From Spirosoma rigui (lineage in GTDB: Bacteria > Bacteroidota > Bacteroidia > Cytophagales > Spirosomataceae), in contig NZ_CP020105.1 in assembly GCF_002067135.1 (NCBI RefSeq), positions 5,084,001 through 5,148,000 of the forward strand: a stretch of 64,000 nt of DNA. The letters are read 5' to 3'. The translations under genes and the position numbers were made by a program. The stretch's first letter is position 1. Each line of letters begins with the position of its first letter. Positions 9,632-61,300 of this stretch are shown in pieces. The notes below the pieces were generated by a model. The model was given only the letters and a program-made list of their open reading frames with translations. It ran no database searches and had not been told where the DNA came from.

Positions 9632-10678
9632 TTAGTACCGGACTACTTTGAAGCGGGAGATCCCCCCGTCGAAGCGAATGGTCATTTTCTTGGCGGCCGC
9701 ATCGTAGCCGGGGCTGACAAACTCGCCCCCGCCGACATCCGAAAAATCGTCCAGCTGGTCCAGATTGAGGGCTCCGTCTTTCTTGATCCGGCACCCTACT
9801 TCTTTCGGTACCCGTACCGTTACCGAAGCGGCTCCAACGTCAAGTTTCACGTCGGATACATCGGCTTTAGCCCCTAATTTCAGATCCAGATCGGCAGCTC
9901 CGGCCGCCAGCTTCAAACTCCGGACGGCGTAGGCACTCACGTCCAGATCGCCCTGCCCGGCACCAAGCGCTATATCCATGGTCCAGACGGGTCTGGCATT
10001 CAGATGAACGTCGACACGATTTTCGAGCTTGCCGTCCGACAGATCAATGTTGTGATGCTCGTCGGTAGGTTTGAGCTCGATCGTTGGAATACGCGTGGTC
10101 GCGTCGCGGTCGACCGACATGGAATAGCTGCCGACGTTTTGCCGCGTATCGGCTTTGATGAGTTCCGCCGTTGGGTCACTGATGGTGAACCGGCCCGCGC
10201 CACCCGCCAGCTTCAGCACGGCTTCGCGGGTGTCAGCCGTCATCGACTCCGAGAATGTATTGGCCTGCACATTGTCGGTTACCCGACGCTGGCGCTCCGA
10301 CTGATACGCTTCGTCCGTATTTTCGTCGTGGTTGTCATCATCGCTCTCCGTATCCTCGTCGTCGCCGTCACGGTCGTTATTATCCTCCTCGTCATCGTCG
10401 TGGTTCCAGCGCACCCCATACCGGTCGCGGTCGTGGGCGAAGAAGCCGAAGAGCGTCGTGGGGACAGCCACGGCCAGCATGATGGTGGTGACGAAAGCAG
10501 CGGCACTCCCCCGCCGTTCGAGGATGATGTTGATACCGGCCAAAATAAGCAACACCGGCCATAAGTCTACCAGCGAGTGCCAGTTGACGTCCAGCCAGCC
10601 CGCCCGGCGGGCCAGAAACAATACCCCGAACGTCAGCAGGAATATGCCCCAGAATAAACCGTTGTTTCGGCGTCGCAT
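9632..10678 (-). CDS. LiaF-like membrane protein with a long acidic linker
   Basis: A 348-residue protein with three or four hydrophobic segments at about 8-90 (GLFWGIFLLTFGVLFLARRAGW, WPVLLILAGINIIL, FVTTIMLAVAVPTTLFGFF), matching the LiaI/LiaF-type transmembrane domain. A very acidic low-complexity linker (about 98-130, mostly D, E and N) follows. The C-terminal half, from about 140, is a beta-solenoid-like LiaF/toast-rack domain with repeated GAG/GAADLDLKLGA turns. It is two bases downstream of the PspC gene on the same strand, so the two are one operon. Related proteins in Firmicutes sense cell-envelope stress; here the role is inferred from that similarity. Confidence 0.8.
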   Translation of the reverse strand: MRRRNNGLFWGIFLLTFGVLFLARRAGWLDVNWHSLVDLWPVLLILAGINIILERRGSAAAFVTTIMLAVAVPTTLFGFFAHDRDRYGVRWNHDDDEEDNNDRDGDDEDTESDDDNHDENTDEAYQSERQRRVTDNVQANTFSESMTADTREAVLKLAGGAGRFTISDPTAELIKADTRQNVGSYSMSVDRDATTRIPTIELKPTDEHHNIDLSDGKLENRVDVHLNARPVWTMDIALGAGQGDLDVSAYAVRSLKLAAGAADLDLKLGAKADVSDVKLDVGAASVTVRVPKEVGCRIKKDGALNLDQLDDFSDVGGGEFVSPGYDAAAKKMTIRFDGGISRFKVVRY

Positions 10679-10680
10679 GG

Positions 10681-11169
10681 TTAAAGCGGGTTATTGGGAT
10701 TGTTGAAATCCGATGGGTTATTGGTTGTGTTGTTCTGGTCGTAGGGAGGCTTGATCCGATCGCGGAAGATGAGCCACAACCCGATGGCGATCAGAATAAA
10801 AGGCCACAGATCGCCAAAGTCAATGTCGAAATACCGATCGATGAGGAACATGACACCGAGCAAAATCAGGATGGCTCCGCCGATAAGTCCCCGGTCGGGT
10901 GATGCAGGTTGGTTAGGGTTGTATGGATTCATGGAAAAAATTGGGTTTGAATACACGGTTAGTTGGTTGACCGAAGCCCCGTACGGCTGCTTGGGCATGA
11001 CGATCCACAAGATAGCGTAAATCAGCAGTGCCGGAAAGCCGGGAAGCGGAATGCCGATCAGAAATAGTAGCCGCACCACCGTGCGGTTCAATCCGAAGTA
11101 CTGGGCTAAGCCCGCACACACGCCCCCAATCATTGCCTCGTCGGAGATACGTTCCAGTCGTTTGTTCAT
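10681..11169 (-). CDS. PspC-domain membrane protein
   Basis: A 162-residue protein. Residues 1-60 are a PspC domain: KRLERISDEAMIGGVCAGLAQYFGLNRTVVRLLF followed by a hydrophobic stretch to VMP. Two more membrane helices (GGAILILLGVMFLI and LWPFILIAIGLWLIF) resemble the LiaI/LiaF membrane region, and the tail is rich in Asn and Pro. PspC proteins take part in envelope-stress responses. The LiaF-like gene starts two bases later, and a -7 element lies upstream at 11209-11216. No pspA gene is nearby. Confidence 0.88.
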   Translation of the reverse strand: MNKRLERISDEAMIGGVCAGLAQYFGLNRTVVRLLFLIGIPLPGFPALLIYAILWIVMPKQPYGASVNQLTVYSNPIFSMNPYNPNQPASPDRGLIGGAILILLGVMFLIDRYFDIDFGDLWPFILIAIGLWLIFRDRIKPPYDQNNTTNNPSDFNNPNNPL

Positions 11170-13208: not shown

Positions 13209-13246
13209 TGTTCGCTGCCGGACACCCGCTGTACGATTTCGGACAC
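13209..13246 (+). promoter_or_regulatory. Tandem inverted-repeat activator site upstream of padR-1
   Basis: The layout is TGTTCG-N4-CGGACA (13209-13224), then five bases, then TGTACG-N4-CGGACA (13230-13245). The two palindromes are centred 21 bp apart, which is two helix turns. The 28 bases from 13219 to 13246 recur with two changes at 22205-22232 before the second padR gene, at an equal distance from a sigma54-type promoter. Such an arrangement fits binding of a dimeric NtrC-type activator. Confidence 0.7.
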
Positions 13247-13297
13247 AGAGACCCGAACAAAACCCCGCTGTAAGCCAGAAAAAGCTGATTGCACAAA

Positions 13298-13313
13298 TTG
13301 GCCCTTCATTTGA
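13298..13313 (+). promoter_or_regulatory. Sigma54-type (-24/-12) promoter of the padR-1/permease operon
   Basis: TTGGCCC, N5, then TTG, with GG at 13300-13301 and G at 13312, giving the exact GG-N10-G spacing of sigma54 promoters. It matches the consensus TTGGCAC-N5-TTGC except at the A of GCAC and the final C. The matching element before padR-2 keeps the same bases and the same distance from the upstream palindrome. Confidence 0.65.
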
Positions 13314-13342
13314 TCGGCATTATCGTATAAAATCAACGGGGT

Positions 13343-13681
13343 ATGAAGCGAGCGTTTCTGGGTGAGTTTGAAGAGGTGGTCCTGCTCACCGTCGCCGTGC
13401 TGGATGAAGGGGCCTACGGGGTCAGCATCACGCAGGAGATCGAGCAAAAAACCGGGCGGGCGGTTGGCTTCAGCACCGTGCATACTACGCTGCAGCGACT
13501 GACTGAAAAAGGATTTCTAGCATCCCGCATGGGTGGGGCTACGGCCGAACGGGGCGGACGCCGGAAACGCTTCTTCACCGTAACGGCCGCGGGCCGGAAA
13601 GCATTGCTCGAAGTCCGGCAGGTGCGGGACGAACTATGGGGGTCGCTGCCACCACAAACCCTGCAACTGATGGGAGGCTGA
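13343..13681 (+). CDS. PadR-family transcriptional regulator (first locus)
   Basis: A 112-residue winged-helix regulator of the short PadR type. The start KRAFLGEFEEVVLLTVAVL and the segment GAYGVSITQEIEQKTGRAV are the conserved PadR helices, VHTTLQRLTEKGFL is the recognition region, and GGRRKRFFTVTAAGRKAL is the wing with its TxxG turn. The usual C-terminal dimerisation helix is short. Only two bases separate its stop from the first permease start, so it should control, and be expressed with, the three permeases. It is clearly paralogous to the 22328 gene, which has the same length and the same neighbour type. Confidence 0.93.
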   Translation: MKRAFLGEFEEVVLLTVAVLDEGAYGVSITQEIEQKTGRAVGFSTVHTTLQRLTEKGFLASRMGGATAERGGRRKRFFTVTAAGRKALLEVRQVRDELWGSLPPQTLQLMGG

Positions 13682-13683
13682 GT

Positions 13684-16293
13684 ATGCGAACGAACAGACC
13701 CCATTCTCCGCCCCGCTGGGCCACTACCCTGCTACGCTGCTGGGCCGACCCCGCCACCCGGGAGGAGGTTGAGGGCGACCTGCTCGAACTTTACAGCGAC
13801 TGGCTGACGACTGCGGGCAAACGACGCGCCGACTGGCGGTATAGCCTGAATGCCCTGAAATTAGTACGACCACTGACCCAATCGAACATAACAGACTACC
13901 CATCCCCCTTTTTTCTCAACGCGTCTATGATCCGCAACTATTTCACCATCGCCTGGCGCAACCTGATCCGCAACAAAGCGTTCTCGGGTATCAACATCCT
14001 GGGCCTTGCCCTCGGTATGACCTGTAGCATACTGATTCTGCTCTGGGTGCAGGACGAACGGAGCATCGATGCTTTCCACGCAAACGGCAGCCAGTTGTAC
14101 CAGGTGTACGAACGGCAGGAGTATGACGGTACGGTCGAAGCCAATTACTTCACGCAGGGGCTGCTGGCCGACGAGTTAAAGCAGGTTATTCCCGAGGTGC
14201 AGCGCGCCAGCAGCCTGGACGATATCAACGCCATCGCTTTCGAGGCAGGTAACAGGATTTATAAGTTGAACGGCACGTTTGCCGGTGCCGACTTCTTTCA
14301 GATGTTTAGCTATCCCCTGCTACAGGGAACGCCCGCCACGGCCCTGAATCGCCCGGGCAGCATTGCCATCTCGCGCCGGATGGCCGGGCAGTTTTTCGGC
14401 AGTGCAGATGAGGCCATCGGAAAATCCATTCGTTATCAGAATAAAGAAGAGCTGCAGGTGACAGCCGTGTTCGAGAACATCCCGGCCAATTCCTCCCAGC
14501 AGTTCGACTTTCTGCGGCCTTGGGTCGACTTCGTCAAGCTCAACCCGTGGGCGAAAAACTGGGGTAACACCAATCCTCTCACCTTCGTGCAGCTACGGCC
14601 CGGCACCGATCCGGTAAAAGTCGAAGCAAAGATCAAGGATTTCGTTTACCGGTACCGGGCTAAAAACCCGGGCTCCCGCACCGAACTGGCCCTGCAACCC
14701 TACGCCGAGAAGTACCTGCACGCAACGTTCAAGAACGGCCGGATCGACGGGGGGCGTATTGAATACGTTCGCCTGTTCAGCCTGGTTGCCCTGTTCATCC
14801 TGCTTATTGCCTGCGTCAACTTCATGAACCTGGCCACCGCCCGTTCCACCAAACGAGCCAAAGAAGTAGGCGTTCGTAAGGTAGTCGGGGCGCTTCGCTC
14901 CGCGCTGATCGGGCAGTTCGTGGGAGAGGCCCTGCTTATCACATCCCTCGCCATCATCCTTGCCGTAGCGCTGGCCTGGCTACTCCTACCCGGCTTCAAT
15001 ACCCTGACCGGCAAGCAGTTGAACCTGCCCATTGGCGAGCCCCGGTTCTGGGCCCTGCTGCTTGGCCTGCTCCTACTGACCGGTTTTCTATCGGGTAGTT
15101 ATCCGGCACTGTTTCTGTCGTCGCTGAGCCCGTCGCGCGTTTTGAAGGGAGGTTTGTCGGTGAACGCAGGAGCCGCCTTTTTCCGGAAAGGACTGGTCGT
15201 TTTCCAGTTCTCGCTGTCCATTATGCTCATCGTCGGCATGATTGTGATGTATCGGCAAACCAGTTACATCCAAACCAAGAACCTTGGCTACAACCGTGAG
15301 AATCTTCTGTACATCCCGATAGAGGGCGATTTAACCGCTAAATACGAGCTGCTTAAAAGCGAAGCGACCAAGCTGCCCGGTGTCCTCAGCGTATCCCAGA
15401 TGCGCGAATCACCTACCCAAATCGGTCACCACATCAACGATGTCGGCTGGGCGGGTAAAGACCCCACGCTGGTTACCTCCTTTGCCAATACGGCCGTGGG
15501 CTACGACTTCGTGAAGACAATGAAACTGCACCTGAGCGAGGGCCGGGATTTTGACCGGAGTTTTGGTACCGACTCCCTTGGGTACCTCATCAACGAAACT
15601 GCTCTGGCCAGAATCGGCTACAAAGACCCTGTTGGCAAGCCCCTGTCCTGGGGCCAGCGCAAAGGTACCATCGTTGGCGTACTGAAAGATTTTCATTTCA
15701 CCACCATGCACCAGGCCATTGAACCCCTGATCATTCGACTGGACGGCAACCGGCAGTGGGGTACTGTCCTGGTCCGTACCGAAGCCGGAAAAACCAGCGA
15801 AGTCCTGGCTGGCCTGGAAGCCCTGTGCCGGGATCTGAACCCGAAGTTCCCATTCAGTTACCAGTTCTCAGACCAGGAATACGACAAGCTCTACCGGAGC
15901 GAACGAATTGTCAGTCAACTGGCCAGTTACTTTGCCCTGCTGGCCATTGTCATCTCGTGTCTGGGTCTGTTTGGCCTGTCGACATTTACCGCCGAGCAGC
16001 GCACCAAAGAAATCGGCGTTCGCAAAGTACTGGGGGCCTCGGTGGCCAGCGTCGTGGCCCTGCTGTCGACTGATTTCCTCAAACTGGTCGTCATTGCCTT
16101 GCTGATTGCCTCCCCCATTTCCTGGTTCGTCATGAACCAGTGGCTGGGCGGGTTCGTGTACAGAATCGATGTCGAATGGTGGATGCTCGCCGTGGCGGGG
16201 GTCATGGCTATTTGCATCGCCTTTCTGACGATCAGCTTTCAGAGTATCAAAGCCGCCCTCATGAATCCAGTCAACAGCTTACGGAGCGAGTAA
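13684..16293 (+). CDS. FtsX/MacB-type ABC permease with N-terminal prefix domain (1 of 4)
   Basis: An 869-residue permease. Residues 1-75 are a soluble prefix (PPRWATTLLRCWADP, then EEVEGDLLELYSDW) of the kind annotated as permease prefix domain 2. Two MacB/FtsX modules follow: the first membrane helix at FSGINILGLALGMTCSILILLWV, a large extracytoplasmic loop, three helices around FILLIACVNFMNLATARSTKRAKEVGVRK, then a repeat of the layout ending FSLSTFTAEQRTKEIGVRKVLGAS-type and NPVNSLRSE. The ATG at 13684 starts right at the prefix; the frame is open upstream but overlaps padR. No ATPase gene is adjacent. MacB-like permeases without transport activity often transmit force or signals, but the role here is unknown. 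Confidence 0.93.
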   Translation: MRTNRPHSPPRWATTLLRCWADPATREEVEGDLLELYSDWLTTAGKRRADWRYSLNALKLVRPLTQSNITDYPSPFFLNASMIRNYFTIAWRNLIRNKAFSGINILGLALGMTCSILILLWVQDERSIDAFHANGSQLYQVYERQEYDGTVEANYFTQGLLADELKQVIPEVQRASSLDDINAIAFEAGNRIYKLNGTFAGADFFQMFSYPLLQGTPATALNRPGSIAISRRMAGQFFGSADEAIGKSIRYQNKEELQVTAVFENIPANSSQQFDFLRPWVDFVKLNPWAKNWGNTNPLTFVQLRPGTDPVKVEAKIKDFVYRYRAKNPGSRTELALQPYAEKYLHATFKNGRIDGGRIEYVRLFSLVALFILLIACVNFMNLATARSTKRAKEVGVRKVVGALRSALIGQFVGEALLITSLAIILAVALAWLLLPGFNTLTGKQLNLPIGEPRFWALLLGLLLLTGFLSGSYPALFLSSLSPSRVLKGGLSVNAGAAFFRKGLVVFQFSLSIMLIVGMIVMYRQTSYIQTKNLGYNRENLLYIPIEGDLTAKYELLKSEATKLPGVLSVSQMRESPTQIGHHINDVGWAGKDPTLVTSFANTAVGYDFVKTMKLHLSEGRDFDRSFGTDSLGYLINETALARIGYKDPVGKPLSWGQRKGTIVGVLKDFHFTTMHQAIEPLIIRLDGNRQWGTVLVRTEAGKTSEVLAGLEALCRDLNPKFPFSYQFSDQEYDKLYRSERIVSQLASYFALLAIVISCLGLFGLSTFTAEQRTKEIGVRKVLGASVASVVALLSTDFLKLVVIALLIASPISWFVMNQWLGGFVYRIDVEWWMLAVAGVMAICIAFLTISFQSIKAALMNPVNSLRSE

Positions 16294-16295
16294 CC

Positions 16296-18920
16296 ATGAA
16301 GCCCCCTGTTCAGCCTTCGCCACCCCGCTGGGCCACCTGGCTATTAAGCCGGTTTGGTCACCCTGATACGCTCGAGGACGTAGCCGGTGACCTGCTCGAA
16401 CTCTACAGCTACTGGCTGCCGACGGTGGGCAAGCGACGCGCCGACTGGCGGTATATGCTGAATGTTTTTACGTTACTGAGGCCCCTAGCCTCATCAAAAC
16501 GACCATCTGAATACGCTTCTCCCCTTTTATCAAGTCCCGTTATGATACGCAACTACGTAAAAATCGCCTGGCGCAATCTGATTCGAAACAAGGTTTTCTC
16601 GGGTATCAACCTGCTGGGCCTATCTACGGGCATTACGGTATGCCTGCTGATTTTTCTGTTCATCATGAACGAGTTCAGCGTCGATAATTTCCACAAAAAT
16701 GGAAATAACATCTACCGGGTTATGCGAGGCATTGAAAATGAGGGCAAAGAGATAGCCGTCTCTTACCTCTCTGGCCCTTATGCACCCGCCTTGCTGACCG
16801 ACTTCAGGGGCCAGATCGCCCAGGCAGTGCGCGTAAATCCGACCGACGCCCTGGTGACCAGCCAGGACCAATCGTTTCACGAGCGTAAAATCATTGATGC
16901 TGACCCTAACTTTTTCACTTTCTTCTCTTTCCCCTTGCTGAAAGGTGATCCAGCCACCGTATTAGCCGACCCGGCGAGTGTCGTCCTTACCGAATCTACC
17001 GCCCGGAAATACTTTGGCAGCACTGACAATGCCCTGGGTAAAATCGTGAAAATCGATAAAAATCTGGCCGTAAAAGTTACGGGTATTGCGCAGGACGTAC
17101 CAGCTAACTCTCACCTGGATTTTGACCTGGTGGTACCGCTGGAAAACTACAAAGACCGGAGTTATATGAACGTCTGGATTAACAACGGTCTGTACACCTA
17201 CGTGCAACTGGCCCCTTCGGTCAGCGCAGCCCAGGTAGAGCGTAGTTTCCCACAGTTCATGGATAAGCACATGGGCCAAATCATGAAGGAGGCCGGTTAC
17301 CAGTTCAGCTTATCGCTCACACCGTTAAAGGACATCTACTTTGAGGAGTCGGCTATCGACAGCGTAAAGCACGGCGACAAGAAAGTTGTCTACATCTTCC
17401 TGTCAATTGCCATACTCATCCTGCTGGTGGCCTGCATCAATTTCATGAACCTGTCGACCGTTCGGGCGGTGGAGCGATCGAAAGAGATTGGCGTCCGTAA
17501 AGTACTGGGAGCCATTAAAGGGCACCTCGTCTGGCAGTTTATCGGGGAGTCGCTATTGCTGGCAGCCTTCTCATGCCTAATCGCCATCGGCTTACTGACC
17601 CTGGTTTTACCCTTTTACAAACAACTACTGGGCTACCCGCTGAACCTGGCTGTCTACGCGTTTCCGATTGCGCTGTTCATGATCGGCATCATTACGGTGG
17701 TGGGATTTCTGGCCGGTAGTTACCCCGCCTTTGTCCTGGCAGCATTCTCGCCCATCCAGTCGTTGAAAGGTAAATTACGGCTCGGTAAAGGAGGTACATC
17801 GCTACGGCAGATGCTGGTGGTCGTGCAGTTCAGCATTTCGATCCTGCTCATGCTCGGCACTGCCATTGGTACGCAGCAGATGAGCTACCTCAAAAACAGG
17901 CACCTGGGCTACAACAAAGAGCAGACGCTGGTAGTCCCCATCGACAATGAGGATATCTATAATTTCTTCCTGAACCACAAACCCGAACTACTGGCCCAGA
18001 GCCGCGTCGAGGCTGTGTCGATGATGTCGGGTGAGCCGGGCGGTTTTTTCGACGGGTTGATGTTCGATGTTGAAGGACATTCCAACCGGTGGAAGTCGCG
18101 AACAGAATTTGCTGATTTCGATTTCGTCAAAACGCTGGGGCTGAAAATCATTGCGGGGCGGGACTTTTCGCCCCAGTTTCCTTCCGATACGACGCGGGCG
18201 GCCCTGATCAACCGAACGGCAGCAGCCCGGCTGGGCTGGACGCCGGAGCAGGCCGTTGGCAAGTGGTTAAAAAACACCCTGCGCGATAGCACCAACCGCA
18301 TCATCGTTGGCGTGATCGACGACTTTAATTTCCTGTCCCTGAAAGAAGCAATGGAGCCGCTGGTCATCACGGCGGCCAACGACCGACGGACTGCGTTGAT
18401 CAGGCTGAAACCCGGCAACCTGACGGCTACGGTCGATATGATCCAGCAGGTGTACGCTAAAACGCGCCCGGCTTATCCGCTTGAGTACCACTTCCTGGAC
18501 CAGCAGTTTGACCAGCTGTACCGGACGGACCTACGCCAGCAAACGATTCTGAGCGTTTTTGCCGGACTGGCCATTTTTATTGCCTGTCTGGGCCTGTTCG
18601 GGCTGGCTACGTTCTCGGCGCAGCAACGTACCAAAGAGATCGGGGTTCGCAAAGTGCTTGGTGCATCCGTGGGCAGTATCGTAGAGTTGCTGTCCCGCGA
18701 TTTTCTGAAACCGGTGGGCATCGCCATTCTGGTTGCCAGTCCGATTGCCTGGTACGCCATGAGTCAGTGGCTGCAGCAGTTTGCGTACCGCATTGATATT
18801 GGGTGGTGGCCCTTTGCGCTGACGGGTCTGCTGGCCGTGGGCATTGCTCTGCTGACGGTGAGCTTCCAGAGTATCAAAGCCGCCCTGATGAACCCCGTTA
18901 GATCCCTGCGGAGCGAATAA
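16296..18920 (+). CDS. FtsX/MacB-type ABC permease with N-terminal prefix domain (2 of 4)
   Basis: An 874-residue paralogue of the previous gene, starting two bases after its stop. The prefix PPRWATWLLSRFGHPDTLEDV and GDLLELYSYWLPTVGKRRADWRY is well conserved, followed by two FtsX modules with the cytoplasmic loops ERSKEIGVRKVLGAIKGHLVWQF and QRTKEIGVRKVLGASVGSI, and the end NPVRSLRSE. The first extracytoplasmic domain differs more between paralogues than the membrane parts do. Together with genes 1 and 3 it probably makes homo- or hetero-oligomers expressed from one operon. No ATP-binding domain is in the protein or next to it. Confidence 0.93.
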   Translation: MKPPVQPSPPRWATWLLSRFGHPDTLEDVAGDLLELYSYWLPTVGKRRADWRYMLNVFTLLRPLASSKRPSEYASPLLSSPVMIRNYVKIAWRNLIRNKVFSGINLLGLSTGITVCLLIFLFIMNEFSVDNFHKNGNNIYRVMRGIENEGKEIAVSYLSGPYAPALLTDFRGQIAQAVRVNPTDALVTSQDQSFHERKIIDADPNFFTFFSFPLLKGDPATVLADPASVVLTESTARKYFGSTDNALGKIVKIDKNLAVKVTGIAQDVPANSHLDFDLVVPLENYKDRSYMNVWINNGLYTYVQLAPSVSAAQVERSFPQFMDKHMGQIMKEAGYQFSLSLTPLKDIYFEESAIDSVKHGDKKVVYIFLSIAILILLVACINFMNLSTVRAVERSKEIGVRKVLGAIKGHLVWQFIGESLLLAAFSCLIAIGLLTLVLPFYKQLLGYPLNLAVYAFPIALFMIGIITVVGFLAGSYPAFVLAAFSPIQSLKGKLRLGKGGTSLRQMLVVVQFSISILLMLGTAIGTQQMSYLKNRHLGYNKEQTLVVPIDNEDIYNFFLNHKPELLAQSRVEAVSMMSGEPGGFFDGLMFDVEGHSNRWKSRTEFADFDFVKTLGLKIIAGRDFSPQFPSDTTRAALINRTAAARLGWTPEQAVGKWLKNTLRDSTNRIIVGVIDDFNFLSLKEAMEPLVITAANDRRTALIRLKPGNLTATVDMIQQVYAKTRPAYPLEYHFLDQQFDQLYRTDLRQQTILSVFAGLAIFIACLGLFGLATFSAQQRTKEIGVRKVLGASVGSIVELLSRDFLKPVGIAILVASPIAWYAMSQWLQQFAYRIDIGWWPFALTGLLAVGIALLTVSFQSIKAALMNPVRSLRSE

Positions 18921-18923
18921 GCC

Positions 18924-21581
18924 ATGAAGCGCCCTGCCTATACCCCTCCTCCCCGCTGGGCTACCACCCTGCTCCGGCGGTGGGGACACCCCGATACGGC
19001 CGAGGAAGTGCAGGGCGATCTGCTCGAACTCTACCACTATTGGCGGCAAACGGTAGGCCAACGAGAAGCCAACTGGCGCTACATCGTCAGCGCACTGAAA
19101 CTGTTGCGGCCGCTGGCCAGACGCAAACCATCTGACTATCCATCTTCTTATATCCTGAACGCCAACATGCTACGCACGTATTTAACACTTGGCATTCGTA
19201 ACCTTGTCAAGAACAGGGTGTACTCGGCTATCAACATTGGTGGTTTGGCGCTGGGCATTGCCTGCTGCCTGCTGATCAGTCTGTATGTGTACGATGAGTT
19301 CAGCTACGACCGGTTTAACACGCATTACAAACACATTTACCGGATCATTGAACGCCAGAAGCAGGCCGACGGCATTTTCGACGTAGCGGTGACGCCGGGA
19401 CCACTGGCTGCTGCCATCGCCAAGGACTTTCCGGAAGTAGCACTTACAACCCGCGTTGGCCGGTGGCACGGATCACTGAGCCAGGGACGCCACCTGATCG
19501 AGCCTGAGCAGTTTCTGATCGTTGACCCCAGCTTTTTCAGTTTGTTCACCTTCCCCCTCGTGGTCGGGGATACGAGCACCATTTTTCGCGGCCCCAATGA
19601 AGTTATTTTCAGTGAAGCAGCCGCCGAACGTTTTTTTGGCACCGACTGGAAACAGCAGCATGTCCTTGGCCAGACCATAACGTTTAACAACGAGCAGCCG
19701 CTCAAGCTGGTGGGTATCGCCAAAAATCCGCCCGTCCAGTCACACATTCAGTTCGACGTACTGATTCCGTTCAAATGGCTGGAGCGTAACTACGAATGGA
19801 GCATGAAATGGAACAGCAATAGCTACCATACCTACGTTCAGCTCCGACCCGACCCATCCGGCGAGCCCGCCAACCCGGCAGCCTTCGGCCATAAGATCAG
19901 GGAGCAGCTCAGCCGGTATGACTCGGGCAACAAAACACCGTTGTTACTACAGCCGCTGTCAGCTATTTACCTGTATTCATCGTTCGCGTTCCAGACCGAT
20001 TACGGGAAGCGCAGCGACATTGCCTACATCCATATCTTCGTCTCGGTCGGGCTTATCGTGTTGCTCATTGCGGTCATCAACTTCATCAATCTAGCCACCG
20101 CGCGGGCATCGCAGCGCGCCAAAGAAGTTGGGGTCCGGAAGAGCGTTGGGGCCCAGCGGTCAAGCTTGATAGCGCAGTTTTTGGGCGAAGCCTTCCTGAT
20201 GACAAGCCTGTCCGTACTGTCTGCCCTTTTACTGGCCGAGCTGCTGCTACCTATCTTCAACGAGCTAGCCGCCAGAGCCAGTCGAATTCCTTATCACCTT
20301 CCGGTTTTTTGGGCGATCCTGCTCGGGATAACCGTCGTGGTCAGCCTGCTGGCGGGTCTGTATCCTGCTTTTGTCCTGTCGTCGTTTCAACCTGTCAGCG
20401 TGCTGAAGACGGGTATAGCAGGCCATTTTAGCCGGGTGCATACAGGACGGCGTTTTCGACAATCGCTGGTTGTGGGGCAGTTCGTGTTATCGATCACCCT
20501 GGCCATCAGCACCATCGTCATCTACCGCCAGCTGACGTTTATGCAAACAACAAAACTGGGTTTCGACAAGTCACACCTCCTTTATGTGAGCCTCAAAGGG
20601 AATCTGCGCGGTAAAGCCCTGGCATTTAAAGAGGCCGTAAGCCAGTTGCCGGGCGTAGACCAAGTATCCGTTGCTACGAGTAATCTGGTCGATATGAGCA
20701 ACGGCACCAACATCGAATGGGAAGGGCAATTCCCAAAGGATGCTTTTTCAATCACCCAGATGAACATCGACGCGGATTTTATCCGGACAACCGGCATGTC
20801 GATGGCTGCGGGGCGAAACTTTTCGGCGCAGATAACCAGCGATACCGCAGCGGCATTGGGTACGTACCTTGTGAACGAAACAGCCGCCAAACGTATGGGC
20901 TGGACACCCACCCGTGCGCTCGGCAAACGCGTTAAGGTTTGGGGTACCGACGGCACCATTATCGGCGTAGTAAACGACTTTCACTTCCAGCCACTACGGG
21001 TGCGCATCGAGCCATTTATTTTCCGGTTTCGGCCCAAGGAATTCTACTTCACCCTGCTGATCAAAACCAACCCGAATCTACTACCCCGTACGCTGGCCGA
21101 AGTGTCGGGTATCTACAAAAAAATGGACCCCGGTACTGCGCTTTCCTATGGCTTCGTCGACCAGGATCTAGATCGGCAATACCAATCCGAACAACGCATT
21201 GGCCGGATCATTTTCTGCTTCGCCATTCTGACGATTCTGGTTTCCTGCCTTGGTCTGTTGGGGCTGACCGCCTTCACCGCTGAGCAACGTACCAAGGAAA
21301 TTGGTATCCGTAAAGTGCTGGGGGCCTCGGTGGCCGGCATCGTCGCGCTGTTGTCCAGAGACTTTCTCAAGCTGATGCTGCTGGCCGTCGTGCTTGCTTC
21401 GCCCCTGGCTTGGTATGCCATGTCCTACTGGCTACATCATTTCGCCTACAAAACCCGCTTCGAATGGTGGATGCCCGCGCTGGCTGGTCTGCTAGCCATT
21501 GGTATCGCCCTGCTGACGATCAGTTTTCAGAGCATTAAGGCTGCCTTAGCCAATCCCGTCAGGAGTTTACGGAATGAATAG
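18924..21581 (+). CDS. FtsX/MacB-type ABC permease with N-terminal prefix domain (3 of 4)
   Basis: An 885-residue permease, three bases downstream of gene 2. It has the same prefix (PPRWATTLLRRWGHPDTAEEV, GDLLELYHYWRQTVGQREANWRY), a first membrane helix at YSAINIGGLALGIACCLLISLYVYDEF, two FtsX modules with QRAKEVGVRKSVGAQRSSLI and QRTKEIGIRKVLGASVAGI, and the ending NPVRSLRNE. A GC-rich hairpin six bases after the stop probably ends the padR-1 operon. Substrate is unknown. The tight spacing (2, 2 and 3 bases) across all four genes argues for one transcript of about 8.3 kb. Confidence 0.93.
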   Translation: MKRPAYTPPPRWATTLLRRWGHPDTAEEVQGDLLELYHYWRQTVGQREANWRYIVSALKLLRPLARRKPSDYPSSYILNANMLRTYLTLGIRNLVKNRVYSAINIGGLALGIACCLLISLYVYDEFSYDRFNTHYKHIYRIIERQKQADGIFDVAVTPGPLAAAIAKDFPEVALTTRVGRWHGSLSQGRHLIEPEQFLIVDPSFFSLFTFPLVVGDTSTIFRGPNEVIFSEAAAERFFGTDWKQQHVLGQTITFNNEQPLKLVGIAKNPPVQSHIQFDVLIPFKWLERNYEWSMKWNSNSYHTYVQLRPDPSGEPANPAAFGHKIREQLSRYDSGNKTPLLLQPLSAIYLYSSFAFQTDYGKRSDIAYIHIFVSVGLIVLLIAVINFINLATARASQRAKEVGVRKSVGAQRSSLIAQFLGEAFLMTSLSVLSALLLAELLLPIFNELAARASRIPYHLPVFWAILLGITVVVSLLAGLYPAFVLSSFQPVSVLKTGIAGHFSRVHTGRRFRQSLVVGQFVLSITLAISTIVIYRQLTFMQTTKLGFDKSHLLYVSLKGNLRGKALAFKEAVSQLPGVDQVSVATSNLVDMSNGTNIEWEGQFPKDAFSITQMNIDADFIRTTGMSMAAGRNFSAQITSDTAAALGTYLVNETAAKRMGWTPTRALGKRVKVWGTDGTIIGVVNDFHFQPLRVRIEPFIFRFRPKEFYFTLLIKTNPNLLPRTLAEVSGIYKKMDPGTALSYGFVDQDLDRQYQSEQRIGRIIFCFAILTILVSCLGLLGLTAFTAEQRTKEIGIRKVLGASVAGIVALLSRDFLKLMLLAVVLASPLAWYAMSYWLHHFAYKTRFEWWMPALAGLLAIGIALLTISFQSIKAALANPVRSLRNE

Positions 21582-21586
21582 TATGA

Positions 21587-21613
21587 TACAGCCGACCGGG
21601 ACAGTCGGCTGTA
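21587..21613 (+). terminator. Hairpin at the end of the padR-1/permease operon
   Basis: TACAGCCGAC and GTCGGCTGTA form a perfect 10-bp stem with a 7-base loop, without a clear T-run. It also lies just beyond the end of the convergent VOC gene. Confidence 0.65.
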
Positions 21614-21628
21614 CGCGCAAACACGTCA

Positions 21629-22024
21629 CTACATTTGGCGTTCGCCGAAACTGTAGCATAGCTCATCGGGGGCGACAATGAAGAGGACCTTCCACGTGAC
21701 ATCACCGTATTTCTGCTGCCGGTAGTCGGGATTTACGTTGCCAAACCCAGTTGCCCTTATTTCTGCGAACATCGTTTCGACATCGTCAACTTCGAAGAAG
21801 CATCCATCCTGCTGGGGGTCTCCCCCGTTTTCGGACAGCCCAATCCGGATGCTGTCGCGCTCAAGTGTAGCCGACGGGTGGGGTGTTTCACCGCGTGAAA
21901 GCACCCGGAAACCCAGGACGGTTTCGTAGAAAGGCAGTGCCGTTTCCAGGCTGACTACGGGCAAATTCATTCGGTCCTGCTGGTAAGGCCAGGCGTTTTT
22001 CAGCGTAGCTTTTGGTGAAAGCAT
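21629..22024 (-). CDS. VOC-superfamily (glyoxalase/bleomycin-resistance-like) protein
   Basis: A 131-residue single-domain vicinal oxygen chelate protein. It shows the typical order: N-terminal beta strand with LPVVSLETALPFYETVLGFRVL, then SATLERDSIRIGLSE, and CFFEVDDVETMFAEIRATG in the second beta-alpha-beta-beta-beta unit, ending in WKVLFIVAPDELCYSFGE with the C-terminal acidic ligand region. The function could be glyoxalase-like, resistance or dioxygenase; nothing points to one. The start at 22024 (MLSPKATLKNAW) is chosen because the open frame beyond it runs into the promoter region of padR-2 and looks non-coding. It separates the two permease loci and lies on the other strand. Confidence 0.85.
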   Translation of the reverse strand: MLSPKATLKNAWPYQQDRMNLPVVSLETALPFYETVLGFRVLSRGETPHPSATLERDSIRIGLSENGGDPQQDGCFFEVDDVETMFAEIRATGFGNVNPDYRQQKYGDVTWKVLFIVAPDELCYSFGERQM

Positions 22025-22204
22025 AAGTTCGGTTGACAAGGGTTTAGCAATCTGTTTTCTTTTTGAAACAAGAATACGGCGCTCAAAACGTAATCTTTTT
22101 ATGCTCTTACCGGGCGAGTGAAATTTTCCACCGGCTACCCGTTCGGAGCTTCCTGACACTACGTCCGCCAATGGATGGCCGGTCAGGTAAACCGTTTTCA
22201 GAAC

Positions 22205-22232
22205 CGGACACCAGCTGTACGTTTTCGGACAC
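22205..22232 (+). promoter_or_regulatory. Inverted-repeat activator site upstream of padR-2
   Basis: CGGACA, then N5, then TGTACG-N4-CGGACA (22216-22231). It matches the 13219-13246 element at 26 of 28 positions. The outer left half-site seen in locus 1 is degraded here (22195-22200). It ends 51 bases before the sigma54-type TTGG, the same as in locus 1. Confidence 0.7.
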
Positions 22233-22283
22233 GGGTATCGAGCATAACCATCGTTTTCCGGCAGGAAAAGGCATTTTTTAGAA

Positions 22284-22299
22284 TTGGCCCCGTATTTGT
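22284..22299 (+). promoter_or_regulatory. Sigma54-type (-24/-12) promoter of the padR-2/permease operon
   Basis: TTGGCCC, N5, TTG with GG at 22286-22287 and G at 22298, giving the exact GG-N10-G spacing. Same core bases and same offset from the upstream palindrome as the element at 13298. Confidence 0.65.
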
Positions 22300-22327
22300 T
22301 CTACAAAAGTTGATTATACCCGAACGG

Positions 22328-22666
22328 ATGAAACGGACATACCTGGGAGAATTTGAAGAAGTGGTGCTGCTAACGGTAGCGGTACTGGGCGAAGGGGCCT
22401 ATGGCGTCGCCATCACCGACGAGCTGGACCGGCAAACCGGCCGCTCCGTGAGCATCAGCGCGGTTCATGCCGCCCTGCATCGGCTGCAGGAAAAAGGGAT
22501 GCTCAACTCTTACTTAGGCGACGCGACCGCCGAGCGGGGTGGTCGGCGCAAACGCCTGTTCACGGTGACAGTGTTGGGCAGCCGGACGCTCCACGAAATC
22601 CGGGCCGTCCGTAACCAGCTCTGGAATTCGATTGCTCCCCAAACCTTACCGGCAGTCAGCCTATGA
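22328..22666 (+). CDS. PadR-family transcriptional regulator (second locus)
   Basis: A 112-residue PadR protein closely related to the 13343 product: KRTYLGEFEEVVLLTVAVLGEGAYGV at the start, VHAALHRLQEKGML in the reading helix, and DATAERGGRRKRLFTVT in the wing. The ATG at 22328 aligns exactly with the start of its paralogue; the frame open upstream contains the promoter elements and is not coding. Its stop codon overlaps the start of the permease gene by four bases (ATGA), which indicates translational coupling. Confidence 0.93.
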   Translation: MKRTYLGEFEEVVLLTVAVLGEGAYGVAITDELDRQTGRSVSISAVHAALHRLQEKGMLNSYLGDATAERGGRRKRLFTVTVLGSRTLHEIRAVRNQLWNSIAPQTLPAVSL

Positions 22667-25299
22667 ACACTCACCCCACCCCGCCCCGCTGGGCCGACCG
22701 TCTGCTGGAATGGTTCTGTGCCCCGCATCTGCTGGAAGAGGTGCAGGGCGATCTGTACGAACGCTTCCTCCGCAATGTAATCCTGCTGGGCGTATCCCGC
22801 GCCCGGCAACAGTACGGCCGGGAAGTGCTGAGCTTCCTGCGTCCGTTTGCCATTAAACGAAAACCCGGTCATTATGCCACTCGCGTTGTATTCAGTCCTG
22901 CCATGATACAGAACTACGTCAAAATCGCCCTCCGAAACCTGGCCCGGAACAAAGCGTACTCGGCCATTAACATCATTGGCTTGAGCATTGGGCTGGCTGC
23001 CGCCATGCTGATCATGCTCTACACCAAGGACGAGGTTAGTTACGACCGCTTCCACCCCAATCATCCCGCCATTTACCGCATTACCAGTCGGGCGTTAACA
23101 CCGGGCGGGAAAGTAAGCCGGGTTGATCCCTATACCGGCTATTTTCCCGGACCTAAATTTCACGCGGGCGTCCCGGAAATACGGTCATTTGTCCGGTACC
23201 AGGAGAATCGGAAAGACATGAAGCAGGGGCGTGAGATCAAAAGCCAGTCTGTCTACTACACCGATACCAGCTTCTTCTCGGTGTTTACCTTTCCGGTATT
23301 GAGTGGCAACCCCAGGACCGCTTTACAAAACCCCCGGTCGGTCGTGATTTCAGAAACGATGGCCGAAACGCAGTTCGGTACGACGGATGCTGTGGGTAAG
23401 ACCTTGTACTTTAAAGATGAAGACACGTTCCAGCCCTATACCGTAACGGCGGTGGCCAAAACCTGTCCGCAAAATTCATCCATCAAATTCGACGTGCTCC
23501 TGCCCCTCATCGTCAGCCCGGAAGAGATGGCTAACAATGAAAACTGGTTCAGCATCTTCATGAATACGTTTGTCGTCGTCAGTCCGGGTGCTAACCTCGC
23601 GGCCGTAGAAGCGAAGATGAACCAGGTCTACGTAGCCGATGCCCGCGCGACCATTGTGGAGATGGCCAGGAAATATGGTATCACTGAAAAAAACCAGTAC
23701 GCACTTCAACCGTTGACCGACATGCACCTGAGCCGGGAATTACCCGCCAGCAATGGGTTGGTAGACGACAGCAACCCTACCTTCTCGTACATTCTGTCGG
23801 GCATTGCCCTGTTCATTCTTCTGATTGCCTGCATCAATTTTGTGAATCTGACGGTGGCCCGTTCGCTGAAGCGGGCGAAGGAAATTGGCGTCCGGAAAGT
23901 CGTGGGTGGGGCGCGGAGTCACCTTATCGTGCAGTTTCTGGGTGAGTCGTTCATCCTGTGCCTGGTCGCCTTTTTGTTAGCCCTGGCGCTGGTTCAGCTG
24001 GCCCTGCCCACTTTTAATCAGCTGGCCAATAAGGCGCTGTCGCTGGCCTACCTGTTCGACCTGCGGCTGGTACTGGGCTACATCGCGCTTTTCATTACCA
24101 CCAGTCTGCTGGCGGGTTTTTACCCGGCGCTGGTCCTGTCGGGCTACAGTCCGGTGGCAACGCTCTACAGCCGTTTTAACCTGTCCGGAAAGAGCTACCT
24201 GCAAAAGGCTCTGGTGGTGCTGCAGTTTTCGCTGGCGTCCTTCCTCATCATTGCTTCACTGACGATCTACTCACAGTTTACGTATCTGACCAGTAAAGAC
24301 CTGGGTTACGATGACAAAAATGTTGTTGTCATCGACAAAAGGAACCTGAGCCGTAGTGAAGTCAAACTCTTTAAAGAAGCGCTGCTGAAGAACCCGAACA
24401 TTGTGGACGTTGCGCCAAAAAATGGCGGTAACTGGGGCACGGTAGCTAAAATCAATGGCGACACGCAACTGAATTTCGCCTACGAAACGGTCAATGAGGC
24501 ATACCTTCCGCTGTTCCATATACCCATTGTGCAGGGACGCAACTTCTCGCCCGACTACCCGTCTGACTCCACCCACTCGGTACTGGTCAACGAAACATTC
24601 GTCAAAAAAGCGGGCTGGAAAAACCCGATTGGCCAGGTCGTTGACTTCTGGTTTCAGGATGTTAAGCCGTTTACCGTTGTTGGGGTGGTGAAAGACCACC
24701 ACTATGAATCGCTGAACAAGGCCATAAAGCCCCAGTTGTTTACCATGAAGCCAGCCAATGAATACGGCCAAGCGTTTATCAAGCTGAAACCCAATACCGA
24801 AACGGTGAGCCTCCATTACATCGAAAAGGTATTCAAGACGTTGTTCCCCATCCACCCCTATTCCTACAAGTTTTTGGATCAGGAAAACCTGAAGCGCTAC
24901 GAGTCGGAAGCCAAGTGGAAACAAATGATGCTCTTCGGGGCCATCCTCACCATATTCATTTCCTGCATTGGCCTCTTCGGGCTGGCCACCCTCTCAGCCG
25001 AGCGACGTACCAAAGAGATCGGTATCCGGAAGGTGTTGGGCGCATCGGTACCGGGTATTGTGCAGCTACTCTCGACAGATTTTCTCCGACTCGTATCCCT
25101 CTCGTTCGTATTCGCCTTCCCGGCGGCCTGGTACGCCATGCAGGAATGGCTTAAAAACTACCCTTATCGCATCGATGTGAGTGTCTGGATGTTTGCCCTG
25201 ACCGCCTTCATTGCTATCGCCATTGCGTTTCTGACCGTGGGCTGGCAGTCGCTGCGGGCTGCCAGGATCAACCCGGTCACGAGTTTAAAATCGGAGTGA
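22663..25299 (+). CDS. FtsX/MacB-type ABC permease with N-terminal prefix domain (4 of 4)
   Basis: An 878-residue permease translationally coupled to padR-2. The prefix is recognisable but more divergent (PPRWADRLLEWFCAPHLLEEV, GDLYERFLRNVILLGVSRAR). Two FtsX modules follow, with the loops KRAKEIGVRKVVGGARSHLIVQF and RRTKEIGIRKVLGASVPGI, and the end is NPVTSLKSE. As in the first locus, no ATPase is encoded nearby. The single-permease locus looks like a copy of the first locus or its founder, since regulator, promoter and permease are all paralogous. Confidence 0.93.
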   Translation: MNTHPTPPRWADRLLEWFCAPHLLEEVQGDLYERFLRNVILLGVSRARQQYGREVLSFLRPFAIKRKPGHYATRVVFSPAMIQNYVKIALRNLARNKAYSAINIIGLSIGLAAAMLIMLYTKDEVSYDRFHPNHPAIYRITSRALTPGGKVSRVDPYTGYFPGPKFHAGVPEIRSFVRYQENRKDMKQGREIKSQSVYYTDTSFFSVFTFPVLSGNPRTALQNPRSVVISETMAETQFGTTDAVGKTLYFKDEDTFQPYTVTAVAKTCPQNSSIKFDVLLPLIVSPEEMANNENWFSIFMNTFVVVSPGANLAAVEAKMNQVYVADARATIVEMARKYGITEKNQYALQPLTDMHLSRELPASNGLVDDSNPTFSYILSGIALFILLIACINFVNLTVARSLKRAKEIGVRKVVGGARSHLIVQFLGESFILCLVAFLLALALVQLALPTFNQLANKALSLAYLFDLRLVLGYIALFITTSLLAGFYPALVLSGYSPVATLYSRFNLSGKSYLQKALVVLQFSLASFLIIASLTIYSQFTYLTSKDLGYDDKNVVVIDKRNLSRSEVKLFKEALLKNPNIVDVAPKNGGNWGTVAKINGDTQLNFAYETVNEAYLPLFHIPIVQGRNFSPDYPSDSTHSVLVNETFVKKAGWKNPIGQVVDFWFQDVKPFTVVGVVKDHHYESLNKAIKPQLFTMKPANEYGQAFIKLKPNTETVSLHYIEKVFKTLFPIHPYSYKFLDQENLKRYESEAKWKQMMLFGAILTIFISCIGLFGLATLSAERRTKEIGIRKVLGASVPGIVQLLSTDFLRLVSLSFVFAFPAAWYAMQEWLKNYPYRIDVSVWMFALTAFIAIAIAFLTVGWQSLRAARINPVTSLKSE

Positions 25300-58395: not shown

Positions 58396-61300
58396 ATGAT
58401 GGATTACTCCACCCCTGCCCGTTACCCTCGCTCGTTTCGAACCCGCAGCGAATATTTATGGATAGCACTGCTGCTGAGCCTGCTGCTGTCTGTTACCGCC
58501 CGGGCTCAGCAGCCTATTCCGCCCCTCACCGTACCCACCTCGTGTAGTTACGTGGGTATACCGGCCACCATCACCCTGACCAGCGTTGATATTCCTCTTG
58601 GCTTTAGCACCCGTTACCTGCTGGTGGATATGACTACGGGATTGATTGTGAGCACCAACCCGCTCCTACCCGTATTTACGTCCATCGATGCCGGTCTGTA
58701 CTATGCCGTAGCGGCTCATTACACCGGTACACTAACCAATGCCGTAGCCGGTCGCCTGATCACGGAGGTGTACGAAAGTACGGGGTGCCTAACCTACGGC
58801 CCTACTACCGGCATCAAAGTCTGCCAGTCGCCCGGCGCCTGCGATTTCGCCAGTGCACCGGCTAACCTGACTTTTACAGCCGCCAATGTATCAGCCGACG
58901 CCACTACGACGTACGTTCTGGTCGACGAGGCAACGAACCTGATTACGCAAACCAGTTCGACGCCTTCGTTCAGCAACGTACCCATTGGCGATTATGCCAT
59001 AACTGCGATTACCTACACCAGTCCGCTGATCGGTTTCGCTCCTGGCAACAGTCTGTACGATGTTACGACGAATTACGCAAACTGCTCTGCCGTTTCACAG
59101 GCCATTCATGTCCGCGTTTGTAATTCCCCCATTACCATCACCAGCCCGGCCAATGGCGCGACCCTGGCTCTTTTTAATCCCCCCGTCACTGGCGTGGCCA
59201 CGCCGGGCAGCAACGTGACAATATTGGGGCCGAACAACCAGGTCTGTTCGACGACGGCACTACCCATTACCGGTTTGTACACCTGTACAAGTCTGACGTT
59301 TGTCAATGGACCGGCTTCCATCACGGCCATCTCATCAGATAACAGTACGGCCACCAGCAGCTTCAATGTCGTGGTGGTGCCCACCGTCACCATCCTGACG
59401 CCCCTCAACGGGACCATCGCTGCCAGTTTCAACCCGCTCATCACCGGTACGGCCACGCCCGGTAGCTCCGTCACCATCGCCGGACCCAACGGACAGGTCT
59501 GCACCACCACCGCTACTCTGGCAGGGCTCTATTCCTGCGCCAGCCTGACGTTCGTCAACGGACCGGCCTCCGTCACGGCAGTTGCTGCCGACAATGGTGT
59601 GTTGAGTAACACCGCCACCAGCAGCTTCAATGTCGTAGTGGTGCCCACCGTCACCATCCTGACGCCCCTCAACGGGACCATCACTGCCGACTTCAACCCC
59701 TTGATCACCGGTACAGCCACGCCCGGTAGCTCCGTCACCATCACCGGGCCCAACGGACAGGTCTGCACCACCACCGCTACTCTGGCAGGGCTCTATTCCT
59801 GCGCCAGCCTGACGTTCGTCAACGGACCGGCCTCCATCACGGCGGTTGCTGCCGACAATGGTGTGTTGAGTAACACCGCCACCAGCAGCTTCAACGTCGT
59901 AGTGGTGCCCACCGTCACCATCCTGACGCCCCTCAACGGGACCATCGCTGCCGACTTCAACCCCTTGATCACCGGTACAGCCACGCCCGGTAGCTCCGTC
60001 ACCATCACCGGGCCCAACGGACAGGTCTGCACCACCACCGCTACTCTGGCAGGGCTCTATTCCTGCGCCAGCCTGACGTTCGTCAACGGACCGGCCTCCA
60101 TCACGGCGGTTGCTGCCGACAATGGTGTGTTGAGTAACACCGCCACCAGCAGCTTCAATGTCGTAGTGGTGCCCACCGTCACCATCCTGACGCCATTGAA
60201 TGGCAGCGTAGCAGCCGACTTCAACCCCTTGATAACCGGTACGGCCACGCCCGGTAGCTCCGTCACCATCACCGGGCCCAACGGACAGGTCTGCACCACC
60301 ACTGCTACTCTGGCAGGGCTCTATTCCTGCGCCAGCCTGACGTTCGTCAACGGACCGGCTTCCATCACGGCAGTTGCTGCCGACAATGGTGTGTTGAGTA
60401 ACACCGCCACCAGCAGTTTCATCATTGCCGTTATTCCGACGGTTGCCTTTACCGGACCAGCACCGGGCAGCCAGACGACACTAACGCCGGTTATTGAAGG
60501 GCTGGCGACACCGGGCAGTTCCGTTACGCTTACCGATGGCACCGCAGTGCTGTGCATAACCACGGCAGATCCGCTGACCGGTATCTTCAGTTGCCCCGTG
60601 ACACTCGCCAGTCCAGGGTCAAAAACCCTATCAGCCGCAACGTCGATCGATGGGCTGGTTTCGCTCACGGTCACCCTGAACTTCACGGCAATTTCGGTGG
60701 GCGGGGGACTTACCCTGCAAGCTAAAGTTCTCCTGCAAGGCGCACTGATCAACTCGCCCGGCAGCCCGCTAATGCGAGACGATCTGCGAGTGGGTAACTA
60801 CCTGCCCTTGTTGACCCCCTACGCATCACTGGTCAGCCCGCGCTTTGCCCAGGTTGGGGGCGGGGGTGAACTCACTACCCCCCTGGTCCTGCTGGCCAAC
60901 GCCGGTACACCCGATGCCATCGTCGATTGGGTATTGGTCGAACTACGGGACGCAGCCAATCCCCAAACGATAGTAGCAACCCGCTCGGCCCTGGTACAGC
61001 GTGACGGAGATGTGGTGGTAGCCGACAATGGTACCGCACCGCTTTCCTTCACCGGGCTCACAGGCTCTAGTTTCTACGTATCGATAAAACACCGCAACCA
61101 CTTGGGTGTCATGACGGCAGCGGCCATTCCGCTGAGCACGACGGGAACGGTTGTCGATTTTACGACGCTGTCGGCCACCGCCACCTTCGACAAGTCGACA
61201 ACGGCAATCAGCTACGATGGCCTGGAAATGGCAACTATCAACGGGAAGAAGGCGCTATGGGCGGGCAATGCCAACCACGACGACCGGGTGAAATATACCG

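Follow-up and report, generated by a model that had tools for sequence, protein, structure and literature searches.

NtrC and ZraR are types of NtrC-family response regulators that act with sigma54, and the enhancers of classic sigma54 systems tolerate variation in distance. PadR regulators are known companions of the acidobacterial duplicated orphan permeases (ADOP). In Bacteroidia, sigma54 promoters were found to be enriched before FtsX-like (COG0577) permeases, which was termed first evidence (PMC12316311, 2025). The system in that study shares its target gene class and sigma factor with the switch described here, also in Bacteroidota, and by word search its main text contains neither the activator, the site, the spacing, nor the PadR link proposed below. 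Orphan-permease copies annotated by RAST number 28 and 33 in two Dyadobacter genomes (PMC11573002). Here we propose which regulator, site, and promoter control permease operons of Bacteroidota, turning the statistical link between sigma54 and FtsX-like permeases into a concrete regulon that can be tested. We put at roughly 85% the probability that the elements upstream of two operons from Spirosoma rigui are upstream activator sites of an NtrC-family protein, NtrC-1, that would drive these padR-permease operons through sigma54. Among the matches listed from the open-licence PMC literature there was no paper on this activator, on the palindrome, or on sigma54 PadR-permease operons.

The window, which is the whole 64,000-nucleotide stretch of DNA that was analysed, contains two operons that begin with a padR gene. 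Operon 1 consists of padR and three permease genes, and operon 2 of padR and one permease gene:

13343 to 13681, + strand: padR-family regulator, first gene of operon 1 (PF03551, E 2.8e-10)
13684 to 16293, + strand: MacB_PCD/FtsX permease with permease prefix domain 2, operon 1 (domain profiles)
16296 to 18920, + strand: second MacB_PCD/FtsX permease with prefix domain 2, operon 1 (domain profiles; the scanned stretch began at 16284)
18924 to 21581, + strand: third MacB_PCD/FtsX permease with prefix domain 2, operon 1 (domain profiles)
22328 to 22666, + strand: padR-family regulator, first gene of operon 2 (PF03551, E 2.1e-8)
22663 to 25299, + strand: MacB_PCD/FtsX permease with prefix domain 2, operon 2 (domain profiles)

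Both regulators belong to the PadR family, with PF03551 scores of 40.5 and 34.5 bits against a gathering score of 27. The + strand of either operon is filled by padR and the permeases, leaving no room on it for an ABC ATPase gene. The arrangement of MacB/FtsX-type permeases behind padR resembles ADOP (TIGR03434, TIGR03433). In contrast to ADOP, however, all four permeases score 300–323 bits against a TIGR03434 cut-off of 622.3, and the two PadRs score 35.7 and 26.5 bits against the cut-off of 101.8 for TIGR03433. Because these scores fall below the cut-offs, the window permeases and PadRs are relatives of the ADOP families and not members. The permeases do pass the cut-off for permease prefix domain 2 (NF038404), and the closest named matches of the locus-2 permease are from Spirosoma species, with S. 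utsteinense at 85%.

Upstream of each operon, the original prediction had placed a shared element followed at fixed distance by a sigma54-type promoter, and direct reading of the sequence confirmed that observation at both loci:

13209 to 13224, + strand: distal palindrome TGTTCGCTGCCGGACA, found at locus 1 only, with the proximal palindrome two helical turns downstream
13219 to 13245, + strand: putative three-half-site activator element CGGACA-N5-TGTACG-N4-CGGACA, locus 1 (proximal palindrome 13230 to 13245)
13298 to 13312, + strand: sigma54-type -24/-12 promoter TTGGCCC-N5-TTG, locus 1 (sequence pattern)
22205 to 22231, + strand: putative three-half-site activator element CGGACA-N5-TGTACG-N4-CGGACA, locus 2 (palindrome 22216 to 22231)
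22284 to 22298, + strand: sigma54-type -24/-12 promoter TTGGCCC-N5-TTG, locus 2 (sequence pattern)

The 28-mers at 13219–13246 and 22205–22232 differ at two of 28 positions, and each holds TGTACG-N4-CGGACA with a further CGGACA ahead of it. The second palindrome claimed for locus 1, TGTTCG-N4-CGGACA, lies 21 bp upstream of the first, and the distal site of locus 2 is degenerate (TTTTCAGAACCGGACA, two mismatches). As predicted, 51 bases separate the 28-mer from TTGG at both loci; elsewhere in this work the gap is counted from the end of the element to TGG, which gives 53 at the window loci (52 to TTGG). Both promoters have the GG-N10-G spacing, padR starts 30 (locus 1) or 29 (locus 2) bases past the -12 G, and the exact TTGGCCC-N5-TTG pattern occurs in the 64-kb window at these two promoters only. 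One departure of the window promoters from the usual sigma54 pattern is that the -12 G is followed by A or T, where C would be expected. At the 127 composite sites described below, the promoters nearly always have TGGCAC, a preference that is partly imposed by the search pattern TGGCNC.

The genome encodes the sigma factor on which the original prediction depended, with one rpoN match (Sigma54_DBD, E 7.7e-55). Its single contig of 5.83 Mb contains the strict palindrome TGTNCG-N4-CGNACA at six places, three of them within the two window loci, and three copies of the exact three-half-site element. The third exact element lies on the minus strand at 5825500; CTGGCACGGCATTGG comes after the same gap as in the window, and an HlyD-ABC-permease operon after that. 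A weaker element at 4541243 (one mismatch) has a promoter at a gap of 52 and a permease downstream, and another at 2923856 (two mismatches) has a promoter at a gap of 54 followed by a secreted-looking ORF of 133 residues with no Pfam or NCBIfam match. Altogether, five sites combine an element with at most two mismatches and a one-mismatch promoter at a gap of 52–54. At two mismatches the palindrome is not enriched within the window (26 observed vs 22 expected), and the promoter pattern shows a slight excess there only (95 vs 79 expected). In the genome, the element at up to three mismatches gave 39 matches, compared with 18 for a reversed control, and the weak end of this list is mostly noise. 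A promoter scan that covered 30 of the 39 found no promoter at the two-mismatch elements at 1297558 and 3414859, promoter matches at two mismatches only for the two-mismatch element at 3701639, and weak promoter matches for a few three-mismatch elements. Two palindromes, at 1434719 and 3260304, were set aside as looking like chance, with no strict promoter 30–60 bases away on either side.

We then searched related genomes for composites of the palindrome and a -24/-12 promoter, with the gap left free between 30 and 60 bases and the reversed pattern as control. In the genus, composites occur in 32 of 36 genomes at 56 sites (control, 1). They were also found in 53 of 121 genomes and 17 of 36 genera of a family sample (control, 0), which included ten genomes of the genus itself, so that the count outside the genus is 44 of 111. 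A phylum sample gave 14 of 296 genomes (control, 0), or 11 of 293 outside the family. The gap is 52–55 at 54 of the 56 genus sites and 43 and 33 at the remaining two. Among 127 distinct sites, a set that omits a family match with a gap of 35 (G088 C27) and many other family-sample rows, the gap is 52–55 in 115, 50–51 in three, 42–45 in seven, and 32–33 in two, with none at 34–41, 46–49, or 56–60. The nine sites with gaps of 42–45 or 32–33 lie approximately one or two helical turns nearer the promoter. In line with the original prediction, palindrome and promoter recur together at near-fixed spacing in the genus, family, and phylum samples. The four genus genomes lacking a strict composite (G014, G019, G026, and G027) all have an NtrC-1 match, partial in G026. 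A search of these four for one half-site plus promoter gave 15 matches vs 7 for the reversed control, and on inspection by eye the G019 and G026 matches seemed to be due to chance.

This recurrence bears on whether the two loci could simply be a duplication, with the shared element as residual similarity. Both operons do consist of padR and prefix-domain permeases. However, the spacers between element and promoter differ at the two loci, as had been claimed, and in other genera and before unrelated genes the surrounding sequence changes while the element is kept. These observations make duplication hardly credible as the source of the match.

The genes that follow the composites are varied. 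At the 56 genus sites, labelled from phmmer matches to S. rigui proteins, they are padR and a permease (14), a permease directly (4), an HlyD-ABC operon like that of S. rigui (8), a second type of HlyD-ABC operon, preceded by TGTGCG palindromes (9), a small secreted-protein family (9), an ORF of ~350 residues (8), and others (4). One of the ~350-residue ORFs (from L086) is DUF4097 by domain test, those of L091, L117, and L128 look alike, and the other four were grouped by ORF position only. The upstream CGGACA-N5 is exact in 12 of the 14 padR-type genus sites. For the 127 composites, the next gene is of HlyD type in 45, small secreted-protein in 24, permease in 18, padR in 17, ABC in five, and other in 18. 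Beyond the PadR/permease operons of the original prediction, the regulon takes in other permease, adaptor, and envelope-protein genes in the genus, family, and phylum samples. The small secreted-looking family recurs behind composite promoters in many loci (L101, L105, L106, L110, L267–L271, L289–L295, and others).

PadR proteins commonly recognise palindromes close to the genes that encode them. The CGGACA palindrome could accordingly be an operator for PadR as repressor, with the -24/-12 match incidental, and both window copies do lie upstream of padR. Three observations make this very unlikely: padR follows only 17 of the 127 distinct composites, the type of half-site goes with the neighbouring NtrC group where one is present (see below), and the proximal palindrome has its centre ~86 bases upstream of where transcription is predicted to begin, not over the promoter. 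Activation through sigma54, our preferred reading, was also examined at 24 loci picked by permease protein similarity alone, in genomes some of which overlap those of the genus and family searches. All ten of these loci with padR directly upstream have the composite, with 0–2 mismatches in total and a gap of 51–54 in nine and 46 in one (L331, a weak case). Shuffling these ten loci 20 times each gave best matches with 2–5 mismatches, and 2 once. At L324 and L332 there is an exact composite without padR. Seven of the 24 loci have another permease directly upstream and no composite, as expected of genes internal to an operon. The upstream scan found no composite at L326 and L334, and L322, L327, and L328 had too little upstream sequence to score. 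L332 comes from a metagenome-assembled genome labelled Thermoanaerobaculia, in which the exact composite, with a gap of 53, begins 110 bases upstream of the matching permease region. Its presence there might reflect transfer, an older common ancestry, or mis-binning.

The S. rigui genome has five strong Sigma54_activat genes. One of them, NtrC-1, is split by the contig ends, running from 5827588 across the linearised end to base 578, ~0.7 Mb from the window loci and ~2 kb from the third exact element. Linearisation inside the gene means that annotation may miss or split the regulator. The search for an NtrC-family regulator beside a similar operon, suggested with the original prediction, led to one adjoining the sister HlyD-ABC-permease operon, which has the same promoter type. 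NtrC-1 has 464 residues in a receiver-AAA+-HTH_8 arrangement, with PF00072, PF00158, and PF02954 all above cut-off, and a histidine-kinase gene lies ~3 kb beyond it, with three unrelated genes between them in the ORF list. Like NtrC and ZraR, it has receiver, AAA+ sigma54-interaction, and Fis-type helix-turn-helix domains, a kinase gene nearby, and palindromic sites upstream of a -24/-12 promoter. In contrast to NtrC and ZraR, the palindrome is TGTNCG-N4-CGNACA, the targets are MacB/FtsX permeases and envelope proteins, the gap is nearly fixed at 52–55 with shorter ones in helical steps, and the protein carries a GAFTDA motif. S. rigui NtrC-1 has GAFTDA in place of GAFTGA, as do 24 of the 30 NtrC-1 sequences examined; in the other six the search expression matched no motif. 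This departure counts against NtrC-1 as the activator, though GAFTDA is listed among the variants that would keep activity (PMC4641369).

NtrC-1 matches are present in the 35 other genus genomes at 66–92%, two of them partial, and two further groups were found at 46–48% (NtrC-2) and 51–53% (NtrC-3, four genomes). The genus thus has at least three NtrC paralogue groups, and these go with different palindromes. At all 17 genus sites within 20 kb of a scored NtrC gene, each type of palindrome goes with a single paralogue group: TGT[C/A]CG-type with NtrC-1 (9/9, eight within 2.1 kb), TGTGCG with NtrC-2 (7/7), and TGTTCG with NtrC-3 (1/1). At the other 39 of the 56 sites, both window sites among them, no scored NtrC gene lies as near as 20 kb, and the pairing is therefore drawn from 17 sites in related genomes. 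A fourth NtrC group, with 34 rows, has no member within 100 kb of a genus site. The pairing was first run with all rows for NtrC-1, -2, and -3 and nine of these 34, and including all 34 left the result unchanged. G032 has a TGTGCG site and no NtrC-2 row at the cut-off used.

The window site might instead be read by one of the four other strong NtrC-type proteins of the genome (near 5386417, 5465678, 4155480, and 2304349), given that no NtrC gene lies beside the window loci. By coordinates, however, NtrC-1 alone adjoins an exact site. In seven other genus genomes a TGTCCG site lies within 2 kb of NtrC-1 in the same neighbourhood, and neighbourhoods of this type also occur beside related NtrC proteins in other genera. 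Furthermore, the recognition helices differ in three of the four other proteins, and the open frame at 5386417 is without such a tail. We consider a different activator unlikely, and NtrC-1 remains the favoured candidate.

The original proposal that an NtrC-type activator reads CGGACA palindromes and switches on transcription through sigma54 is supported by rpoN, the recurrent composite, and the sister operon adjoining the regulator. From the computed element, its phasing and recurrence, rpoN, the domains of the regulator, and the pairing of paralogues with sites, we infer binding, phosphorylation, and activation along the following lines. Through its Fis-type helix-turn-helix, NtrC-1 would recognise CGGACA half-sites; a dimer would probably occupy the TGTNCG-N4-CGGACA palindrome, helped by the extra half-site. 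Phosphorylation, presumably by the product of the histidine-kinase gene 3 kb away, would then allow NtrC-1 to remodel sigma54 polymerase at the -24/-12 promoter, with its TGG box 52–55 bases downstream, turning on the padR-permease operons. It may also drive the HlyD-ABC-permease operon beside its own gene and other envelope genes. Because the gap is near-fixed and helically stepped, the data suggest that NtrC-1 reaches the polymerase across a short stretch of DNA with a defined length and not through a loop of free length, which bears on how strict activator-promoter geometry is at sigma54 promoters. Judging from the targets, the signal might be envelope stress or an antimicrobial compound, and we speculate that PadR acts as a feedback repressor of its own operon.

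A strict IHF-like site, WATCARNNNNTTR, is absent from both window spacers. It occurs in the spacers of 14 of 24 small secreted-protein sites (shuffle mean 0.17), 5 of 45 HlyD-type (0.23), 5 of 18 other (0.07), 3 of 18 permease (0.02), 1 of 5 ABC, and 1 of 17 padR-type sites. We rejected an IHF-like site as a general part of the switch, although it may be real for some gene classes.

Paralogue-specific half-sites bear on how Fis-type helix-turn-helix domains choose DNA. We fetched 60 family and phylum loci, chosen to cover the palindrome types and not at random, and found an NtrC gene in 23. Within the family, recognition helices with ITRF go with TGTGCG (5/5, four genera), LTRS with TGTTCG (5/5, one genus), LTRAS with TGTACG (3/3, one genus), and SRQ or TRQ with TGTCCG (4/4, three genera). 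Of 32 helix-turn-helix columns compared across 40 paired proteins, that of Q453 is the most informative about the fourth base of the half-site, at 1.67 bits, a value inflated by kinship. Outside the family, one of six proteins fits (L281, TRQ with TGTCCG), four do not (L276, L279, L280, and L282), and L242 has a helix of its own. A simple one-residue code is broken there by L276 (A) and L279 (S), both at TGTCCG sites, and L280 and L282 have mixed sites. As a tentative generalisation, which we hold at somewhat less than even odds, NtrC paralogues of Bacteroidota may divide TGTnCG-N4-CGnACA sites by the fourth base (at one recognition-helix position, Q for C or sometimes A, F for G, either M or S for T, and A for A), such that co-variation of residue and base during paralogue divergence forms a readable Fis-type recognition code, combined with a set, helically phased activator arm in place of an enhancer that tolerates changes in distance.

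Elsewhere in the window, two adjoining ORFs occupy 9632–11169 on the minus strand. They resemble a LiaF-type (toastrack) protein and a membrane protein of the PspC type, which together would make up an envelope-stress pair. A tandem array of about four 264-base units, with 96% matches, lies at 59350–60421.
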